DNA of 54,860 bases from Clostridiales bacterium (GTDB taxonomy: Bacteria > Bacillota > Clostridia > Oscillospirales > Oscillospiraceae). Positions within the stretch are counted from its first letter, which is position 1. The number at the start of each line of letters is the position of its first letter. A program made the position numbers and the translations under genes. Below are positions 38,624 to 41,897 of this stretch, one piece after another. The notes under the pieces are model-generated. The model saw only the letters and a list, made by a program, of their open reading frames with translations, did no database searches and was not told the DNA's origin. The stretch covers positions 1-54,860 of the forward strand of contig JAJQBR010000127.1 in NCBI GenBank assembly GCA_021203185.1, given 5' to 3'.

Positions 38624-38783
38624 GGAAGCTCTGGTTAAATGGACTTGGATGGCTGGGCGAGCAGATTTTGCGCAAATCGAGGCGTAAAATCGCAGGAATC
38701 CTTTGTGGATTTCAAGATTTTACAACGAAGAGTTGCACGAAATATGCCGTCCAGACGCCGGGAGTTATTTAATCAGAGGTTCC
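38624..38783 (+). mobile_element. 160-bp TIR-bounded MITE-like repeat, copy A
   Basis: Termini GGAAGCTCTGGTTAAAT ... ATTTAATCAGAGGTTCC; near-identical same-orientation copy at 41651-41810. Confidence 0.8.
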
Positions 38784-38808
38784 CTAAACAAAAAGGAGCT
38801 TTCCCCGC

Positions 38809-39501
38809 ATGAAATGGTTACTTTCCTATCTGTCCGCTGAAAAAGAGAAAATCGCCGGGCTGCCTGACCGCAGGGCCAAGGCCGAGTACATCTGGCAGTA
38901 TTACAAGCTGTGGATCATCGGCGTTGTCTGCGGCGTCACCCTGCTGGGGTATGTCATTTACCAGGTGAATACCGCCCTTTCTGAGAACTGGCTCTATGTC
39001 ACCTTTACCAACACCTACGAAGAGGTGGGTACCGGCTCCGACCTGTGGGAGGACTTTGTGGAGTACGCAGGCTTCGACCTTTCGGAGAAGAACGTGATTT
39101 TCAACAACAGCTCTTATTTTGACTACGCCAGCAACCAGGGGTCGGGCAACACCTACTATCAGGTCTTTGTGTCGTATGTGGATGCCGGAACCCTGGACTG
39201 CGTAACCATGGAGGAGGATTCTCTGGTGGCGCTGGGCGCAACCGGACGATTGTTGGACCTGAACAGCGAGGGATGTGCCTCCATCGTGGAGAAGTATGGG
39301 GACCGGCTGGTCTACTGTGAGCCTTATGACGAGGAGTACAGCGACGACCTGGTGCCGGTGGGCATCGATGTCAGCGACACCTGCCTGATGACGGAATACC
39401 ATCTCTACGAGGACAGCTGCGTCATCGGCATTGGCGCGTACAGCCAGAACCTGGACGCGGTGGAACTCTTTTTGGACTATCTGATTGGGGAGGCTTCGTA
39501 A
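38809..39501 (+). CDS. Hypothetical membrane-tethered protein (one N-terminal TM plus large extracellular domain)
   Basis: MKWLLSYLSAEKEKIAGLPDRRAKAEYIWQYYKLWIIGVVCGVTLLGYVIYQVNTAL...; immediately upstream of the YesL-like gene. Confidence 0.8.
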   Translation: MKWLLSYLSAEKEKIAGLPDRRAKAEYIWQYYKLWIIGVVCGVTLLGYVIYQVNTALSENWLYVTFTNTYEEVGTGSDLWEDFVEYAGFDLSEKNVIFNNSSYFDYASNQGSGNTYYQVFVSYVDAGTLDCVTMEEDSLVALGATGRLLDLNSEGCASIVEKYGDRLVYCEPYDEEYSDDLVPVGIDVSDTCLMTEYHLYEDSCVIGIGAYSQNLDAVELFLDYLIGEAS

Positions 39502-40799: not shown

Positions 40800-41627
40800 T
40801 TACCGCACCCGAATGATGACCTCGGCGGTCTGGCCATCGCCGCTGGTGCAGGTGACGGTAGTGGTGCCGGAGGCCACGGCTGTGACCGTGCCGCCGGTGG
40901 GGGAGACGATGGCGATGGCGCGGTCGGCGCTCTCCCAGGTGTACGTTCCGTCGCCGCCGGTGGGGGAGAAGGTGTAGCTGTCGCCCACGCTGGCCAGGGT
41001 GATGTCGTAATAGTCCAGTGCGAGATGCTCCACTGTGCCGGAGGCCGCTGTGTCTTCCTCCTGGGTTTCCTCGTCCTCCTCCGGGACAAAGTCGGGGTTC
41101 ACCGCGTAAACGAAGCTGGGGACGTCCTCCAGGTTGTAGAGCTGGTTGACGTAGTCGATGAGCAGGGCGGAGAAATTTTCAAAGTCGGTCTTTGTCTCCG
41201 CCAGGGAGAGATAGCAGGTGCAGCCGTTGTTGGTGAAGGAGAACTCGCAGTAGTAGATGCTCTCCCCTATGACAGAGACCTCCAGGGCGCTGAACACCTC
41301 AGTGGGGGCTTCGACGCCGCCGGCCATGCCCGCGTTCTCGTACCCGGCCAGGCCCTCCAGCAAATCTTCCTCCAGCGTCATGCGCAGGGTGACGGCGGAG
41401 TCCCCGTCCCGGTACTCCGCCTGTCCAATGACCTCATCCACCACGGCGGCGGCGGTGAAGGTCAGGCCGTCGGCCTCTGGCTCCAACAGGTCGTAGCCCA
41501 GGGCCTCGGACACCTCAGCGGCGGAGCTTTTTTCCTCCACCGTGGGGGACTCGTCCCTGCCGCCGCAGGCGGTGAGGGAGCAGAGCAGGGAAAGAGCCAA
41601 AATAAGAGAGAGTAGTTTTTCCATCAT
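40800..41627 (-). CDS. Lipoprotein with C-terminal Ig-like (BIG2-type) domain
   Basis: MMEKLLSLILALSLLCSLTACGG signal/lipobox; C-terminal YTFSPTGGDGTYTWESADRAIAIVSPTGGTVTAVASGTTTVTCTSGDGQTAEVIIRV. Confidence 0.85.
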   Translation of the reverse strand: MMEKLLSLILALSLLCSLTACGGRDESPTVEEKSSAAEVSEALGYDLLEPEADGLTFTAAAVVDEVIGQAEYRDGDSAVTLRMTLEEDLLEGLAGYENAGMAGGVEAPTEVFSALEVSVIGESIYYCEFSFTNNGCTCYLSLAETKTDFENFSALLIDYVNQLYNLEDVPSFVYAVNPDFVPEEDEETQEEDTAASGTVEHLALDYYDITLASVGDSYTFSPTGGDGTYTWESADRAIAIVSPTGGTVTAVASGTTTVTCTSGDGQTAEVIIRVR

Positions 41628-41650
41628 ACAATCTACCTGATTTCAGAATG

Positions 41651-41810
41651 GGAATCTCTGATTAAATGGCCTTGGATGGCTGGGCGAGCAGATTTTGCGC
41701 AAATCGAGGCGCAGAATCGCAGGAATCCTTTGTGGATTTCAAGATTCTGCAACAAAGAGTTGCACGAAATATGCCGTCCAGACGCCGGGAGTTATTTAAT
41801 CAGAGGTTCC
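41651..41810 (+). mobile_element. 160-bp TIR-bounded MITE-like repeat, copy B
   Basis: Termini GGAATCTCTGATTAAAT ... ATTTAATCAGAGGTTCC (16 of 17 complementary); second copy of 38624-38783. Confidence 0.82.
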
Positions 41811-41813
41811 AAA

Positions 41814-41852
41814 ATAAATGGTACTTCACGAAAACTGTGAAGTACCATTTAT
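41814..41852 (-). terminator. Perfect 16-bp stem hairpin downstream of galT
   Basis: ataaatggtacttcac gaaaact gtgaagtaccatttat; on the minus strand followed by TTTTGG. Confidence 0.65.
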
Positions 41853-41897
41853 CTTACCGGTTGAAAGGCATTTTGTCAATCTTTTGGCAGCAGAGAA

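Follow-up and report, generated by a model that had tools for sequence, protein, structure and literature searches.

The window analysed here, a stretch of 54,860 nucleotides from an Oscillospiraceae genome (GCA_021203185.1, contig JAJQBR010000127.1), contains two very similar stretches of DNA, referred to as copies A and B. A preliminary description had noted that base changes between the copies preserve an internal stem, and that one strand of this stem could instead pair with a sequence further upstream. This raises the question of whether a folded RNA or DNA is under selection at this locus and whether the fold can switch between two states. The strings on which the description was built are indeed present: the middle strand reads gcgTaAaatc in copy A (38682-38691) and gcgCaGaatc in copy B (41709-41718), the distal strand reads gattTtAc (38716-38723) and gattCtGc (41743-41750), respectively, and the upstream strand gattttgcgc begins at 38664 and 41691. 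By reading, the copies differ at 8 of 160 positions, and four of these eight differences make up two compensatory pairs. According to our own rough estimate, this would occur by chance in about 1 in 1000 cases.

The two copies and their genetic context

Copy A (38624..38783, plus strand, 160 bp) is located between a gene for a GH36 (melibiase-like) protein and an ORF at 38809. It is oriented sense to both and lies inside an apparent operon, 25 bp before a start codon. Its left terminal inverted repeat GGAAGCTCTGGTTAAAT covers 38624..38640 on the plus strand and its right repeat GGAACCTCTGATTAAAT, read on the minus strand, covers 38767..38783. Copy B (41651..41810, plus strand, 160 bp), with the left repeat at 41651..41667 (plus) and the right repeat at 41794..41810 (minus), is antisense to the minus-strand gene of a Big_2 protein (40800-41627) and ends 23 bp upstream of its start. 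The gap from the end of the element to a start codon is 23-25 bp for both the sense copy A (38784-38808) and the antisense copy B (41628-41650). Copy B occupies most of the upstream region of the Big_2 protein gene and effects on its promoter are therefore possible. A strong stem-loop at 41811-41855, which adjoins copy B, is probably the terminator of a minus-strand galactose-1-phosphate uridylyltransferase-like gene.

Both copies are full-length members of a family of miniature inverted-repeat transposable elements (MITEs). The family element is about 160 bp long, has 17-bp inverted ends (GGAAnCTCTGATTAAAT), lacks a transposase gene and is present in multiple copies. Since the element is nearly palindromic, the family profile was built from one strand. 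At least 15 copies are present in the genome of the window (2.48 Mb), and a DNA search of 40 sampled genomes uncovered relatives in 15, which all belong to the same genus.

The likely source of mobility

Insertion by an IS5-type transposase is expected to generate 4-bp target duplications, mostly of the form YTAR. Perfect 4-bp repeats flank 58 of 164 copies of the family, and 39 of the 58 are YTAR; inspection of the flanks of copies A and B revealed no clear target duplication of their own. Moreover, other sites with these ends in the genome of the window are found at contig edges, where the sequence continues into the beginning of a transposase gene, and the sequence GGAATCTCTGATTTAAT is located beside a transposase N-terminus at contig ends. 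Five contigs (C20, C46, C59, C60 and C130, corresponding to loci L112, L111, L114, L115 and L116) break off inside copies of IS5-family elements. Complete IS5-family copies are absent from the assembly because the contigs stop inside them. A complete relative is present in another species of the genus (L120, 386-1595). It has the ends GGAACCGCTGATTAAT and GGAACCACTGATTTAA and the target duplication TTAG, and its 327-aa protein scores 308 bits against the NCBIfam IS5 model NF033581 (cut-off 140). The ends of a further element (L247) are identical to those of L120. A search of the window's genome with PF01609 gave no match, despite the presence of an IS5-family transposase. Thus, based on the YTAR duplications and on the transposase elements with shared ends, the MITE is most likely moved by an IS5-family transposase.

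A hairpin on one strand, maintained by compensatory changes

Structure prediction for the plus strand gave a single unbranched hairpin that spans each copy from end to end, with free energies of -74.6 kcal/mol for copy A (z -8.4) and -85.3 kcal/mol for copy B (z -12.3). The minus strand of copy B is much weaker (-58.2 kcal/mol, z -5.9). For every one of the 73 distinct full copies of the genus, the plus strand is more stable than the minus strand. The same holds for 32 of the 33 sequence clusters; the exception is a partial copy, in which both strands are equal.

The stem recognised earlier is the inner helix of this hairpin and is designated P2. In copy A, its 5' arm GTAAAATC (38684..38691, plus), which belongs to the middle strand, pairs with the 3' arm GATTTTAC (38716..38723, plus), the distal strand; the corresponding arms of copy B are GCAGAATC (41711..41718, plus) and GATTCTGC (41743..41750, plus). 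Between the arms lies a conserved tip (38692..38715 in copy A and 41719..41742 in copy B, both plus), which in copy A consists of an internal loop (GCA at 38692-38694 and AA at 38714-38715), the stem GGAATCC/GGATTTC and the loop TTTGT. Two internal loops are nearly constant and are the most conserved parts of the element, although many relatives were collected by their tip sequence, so that conservation of the tip is partly built into that set. In the tip loop, 5'-C GCA G-3' faces 5'-C AA G-3', and in the loop below P2, 5'-C AA G-3' faces 5'-C GCA G-3'; a part of the clusters has GA facing GAA at the latter position. The two loops present one motif in mirror-image arrangement, at a distance of about 11 steps.

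The covariation of the internal stem is real. Within the subfamily of the window copies, P2 occurs as TAAAATC/GATTTTA, CAAAATC/GATTTTG, CAGAATC/GATTCTG, CGAAATC/GATTTCG, CGGAATC/GATTCCG, TGAAATC/GATTTCA and CAAAAAC/GTTTTTG. In these 20 distinct copies of the subfamily, 98.8% of the P2 cells are Watson-Crick. Across 58 diverse relatives, 89% of the P2 pairs are canonical, and without the own subfamily the value is 88%, compared with 53 +/- 3% when the arms are shuffled between sequences. Furthermore, 6 of 29 consensus pairs, including 38685-38722 in P2, are significant under a tree-based null (E<0.05), and no column pair outside the structure reaches significance at this threshold. In an alignment of 50 sequences, 23 of 30 pairs have changed on both sides, and most P2 pairs show three or four pair types.

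The changes that lead away from Watson-Crick pairs bear on the question of which strand is selected. Without selection on one strand, drift to G-U and to A-C is expected to be equal. In the family trees, 66 changes led to G-U and 30 to A-C (p=3e-4). Unpaired columns lack this bias, with 20 changes of the first class and 29 of the second (Fisher p=0.002), which indicates selection on one strand. The numbers are 20 and 2 (p=1e-4) for internal branches, the ones that stand for copies with descendants, compared with 47 and 28 for terminal branches, which represent individual insertions. The fold is thus kept mainly in propagating lineages. The selected molecule is most likely the RNA of one strand, mainly in propagating copies. 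The earlier proposal of selection on a folded RNA or DNA therefore stands and can be narrowed to the plus strand; between the two molecules, RNA is favoured, which falls short of proof.

The proposed alternative stem

The idea of a switch, in which the middle strand would take part in either of two mutually exclusive stems, did not hold up. The upstream strand gattttgcgc is complementary to the middle strand in both copies, as had been stated, and in most of their subfamily (96% canonical pairs, wobble counted). In other subfamilies, however, 47% of the pairs are canonical, which equals the shuffled expectation of 47%. Moreover, the alternative stem is absent from the predicted RNA ensemble, with pairing probabilities of 0 in copy A and at most 0.005 in copy B, compared with at least 0.993 for P2. 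In copy A, the upstream strand (38664..38673, plus) has its partner in the 3' strand of the long hairpin instead of in the middle strand. The strand in copy B (41691..41700, plus) has the same outer-stem role, and the alternative stem is found here only in the fold with DNA parameters, in which the middle of copy B refolds. The alternative pairing is a by-product of similar sequence within one subfamily. A two-state RNA switch was rejected because the alternative stem is neither conserved nor significantly populated, and we give this reading hardly any credence.

The same interior with different ends

At least 118 stretches of GTDB genomes contain the tip sequence GCAGGAATCC-N-GGATTTCAAG; their titles include Flavonifractor, Intestinimonas, Lawsonibacter, Oscillibacter, Pseudoflavonifractor, Faecalibacterium and others, and the tip also occurs in two viral contigs. 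The 168 core segments fall into 33 sequence clusters, in nearly all of which the long hairpin recurs on the same strand, formed from different helix sequences. The terminal repeats of the clusters include GGAAnCnCTGAwTAAA, GGsCTTGTTTGAAA, GAGCCTGTTTAAAAT, GAAGCTGTACCAATAGG, GAACCTGTATTCATAA, GGTGTATCTGAAAA, CACCGCACAAT, GGCACCTCTAAAAAC and others, and the same fold is thereby combined with at least eight unrelated types of terminal repeat. At similar core identity, the ends are alike to 0.82 in pairs of the same type and to 0.58 in pairs across types; as permissive gaps inflate these identities, only the contrast between the two values is meaningful.

Of 147 genomes sampled from the order, 57 gave matches to a covariance model, corresponding to 34 of 86 genera. 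The model also matched a few genomes from other families within a phylum-wide sample of 299 genomes. Members outside the order have a shorter or different tip and retain the inner loop ACAAGG/CAACGCAG. Two of them (L262 and L271) are minimal 116-bp versions that lack P2 and the tip and have kept the loop GCAAGACAACGCAG.

Composite forms of the element have been found as well. Four double elements among the distant members (L278 603-840, L281 685-919, L282 630-867 and L291 762-997) contain two family hairpins in opposite orientation within one longer inverted-repeat element. Their fold resembles a three-way junction, and both strands are nearly equally stable because the two hairpins are oppositely oriented, a point against the overall explanation preferred below. 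In addition, several subfamilies have inserted modules in common, each at a particular position of the hairpin: a module of 35 nt in L014, L017, L039, L054, L057, L058 and L101, one of 32 nt in L013, L017 and L153, and one of 70 nt in L097 and L101. The shared modules look as if small pieces get added to the stem.

MITEs are usually viewed as passive leftovers that are defined by their ends. In this family it is the folded interior that persists through the exchange of ends. The interior is thus the constant part, and the question arises which cellular factor reads it. It is conceivable, if somewhat doubtful, that we are dealing with an undescribed superfamily of structured RNAs inside MITEs of many gut-bacterial families, whose ends have been changed several times and whose two mirror loops would bind a conserved cellular protein, a contact needed for the elements to spread.

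Which molecule is selected and what reads it?

On balance, we consider it probable, with room left for doubt, that the copies belong to a MITE mobilised by IS5, with a conserved and strand-specific hairpin as its body, that RNA is the selected molecule and that a cellular factor recognises it. Once transcribed, the plus-strand RNA would fold into the hairpin, and a conserved cellular factor might recognise the folded RNA via the two 2x3 internal loops (5'-CAAG-3'/5'-CGCAG-3'). Mirror-oriented loops about 11 steps apart would suit a homodimeric double-strand-RNA-binding protein, for which RNase III is the plainest candidate that we can infer. Binding or processing might help those copies that go on to propagate, and single insertions would then decay almost neutrally. 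The naming of the factor and of its benefit is tentative, and we would not be surprised if both were wrong.

The main rival to the RNA reading is that the selected molecule is single-stranded DNA; the role as a transposition intermediate suggested in the preliminary description falls under this rival. The plus strand would fold during replication-coupled or strand-specific transposition and a protein would read the hairpin, as at the ends of IS200/IS605 elements or at integron attC sites. The insertions without preferred orientation to genes, the strongest selection on propagating lineages and the retention of the fold while the ends change all suit this explanation. DNA parameters, too, favour the plus strand in 72 of 73 copies, and G-T is the best-tolerated mismatch in single-stranded DNA as well. 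However, G-U pairs are frequent, and internal branches tolerate them nearly as well as Watson-Crick pairs. The conserved hairpin is also the best fold less often for DNA than for RNA: one unbranched hairpin is predicted for 134 of 139 plus strands and 101 of 139 minus strands as RNA, compared with 113 and 67 of 139, respectively, as DNA. Likewise, copy B does not keep the middle of its hairpin as DNA, and both the ends and the target duplications match the IS5 type, which has a DDE transposase. In favour of the DNA reading, a published motif, the abundant mobile single-stem MRSC-65-2, has been suggested to act possibly as DNA (PMC11109978). Altogether, single-stranded DNA is an unlikely explanation that nevertheless deserves serious consideration.

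Alternatively, the hairpin could act at the level of the host, in the mRNA of flanking genes, by affecting stability, processing by RNase III or RNase E, or insulation, as for Correia and ERIC. The position of copy A in its apparent operon would fit such a role, and effects of RNase III and RNase E have been described for Correia and ERIC transcripts (PMC10969869). A sense excess would then be expected, and no orientation bias that might support an mRNA role was found among the insertions, of which 33 are sense, 28 antisense, 11 convergent and 8 divergent to genes called with a simple in-house codon model. The neutral orientation argues against a simple host-mRNA role and in favour of a contribution to the success of the element itself. 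As selection is also weak on the terminal branches, that is, on individual insertions, we regard regulation of the host as improbable, slightly more so than the DNA explanation. Neutral correction of quasipalindromes, by which template switching copies mutations from arm to arm and mimics compensatory change, has in its favour that the element is a near-palindrome and that double changes on the same branch are common (33). However, this process should remove internal loops, and here it is specific asymmetric loops that are conserved best; the equal drift to G-U and A-C that it predicts was also rejected. It is thus very improbable. The family is abundant in common gut bacteria and is well suited to structure probing and pull-down. 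With it, one can ask directly whether a mobile element relies on the folding of one of its own strands.

Comparison with known systems

A search of Rfam 15 at loose thresholds with the window region and nine loci gave no relevant match, and no description of this MITE or hairpin family was found in the papers searched, which included few subscription papers. Like IS5-family MITEs, the elements are short, carry no gene, and share terminal inverted repeats and 4-bp YTAR duplications with IS5-family elements of the same and related genomes. In contrast to ordinary MITEs, which are usually described by their ends, they have a conserved strand-specific hairpin body that is combined with various types of terminal repeat. 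In a survey of 50 bacterial genomes, 250 mobile or repeat structured candidates have been reported, among which MRSC-65-2 is a single long covarying stem (PMC11109978). These candidates resemble the present family in being multi-copy and orientation-free, in having a single long covarying stem and in a possible link to a transposase (PMC11109978). MRSC-65-2 is described by a repeated UYCCGG, whereas the present family has constant CAAG/CGCAG loops; no repeated UYCCGG was seen by eye in the plus strands of copies A and B.

Correia/NEMIS and ERIC elements are also MITE-like repeats; the RNAs made from them fold and can undergo processing, by RNase III or RNase E in the case of Correia and ERIC (PMC10969869). 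They have been described in Neisseria and Enterobacteria/Yersinia, and they were compared with the present family by description. We know of no internal-loop core in these elements that is conserved across different ends. The subterminal hairpins of IS200/IS605, REP/REPIN and integron attC sites are strand-specific folded hairpins in mobile DNA, like this family; however, the systems to which they belong, single-strand transposition or integrons, lack inverted ends of the IS5 type and YTAR duplications. The stepwise exchange of stem pairs in dozens of related elements whose ends differ points to an apparently unreported structured RNA, or less likely a single-stranded DNA, which the elements would need.
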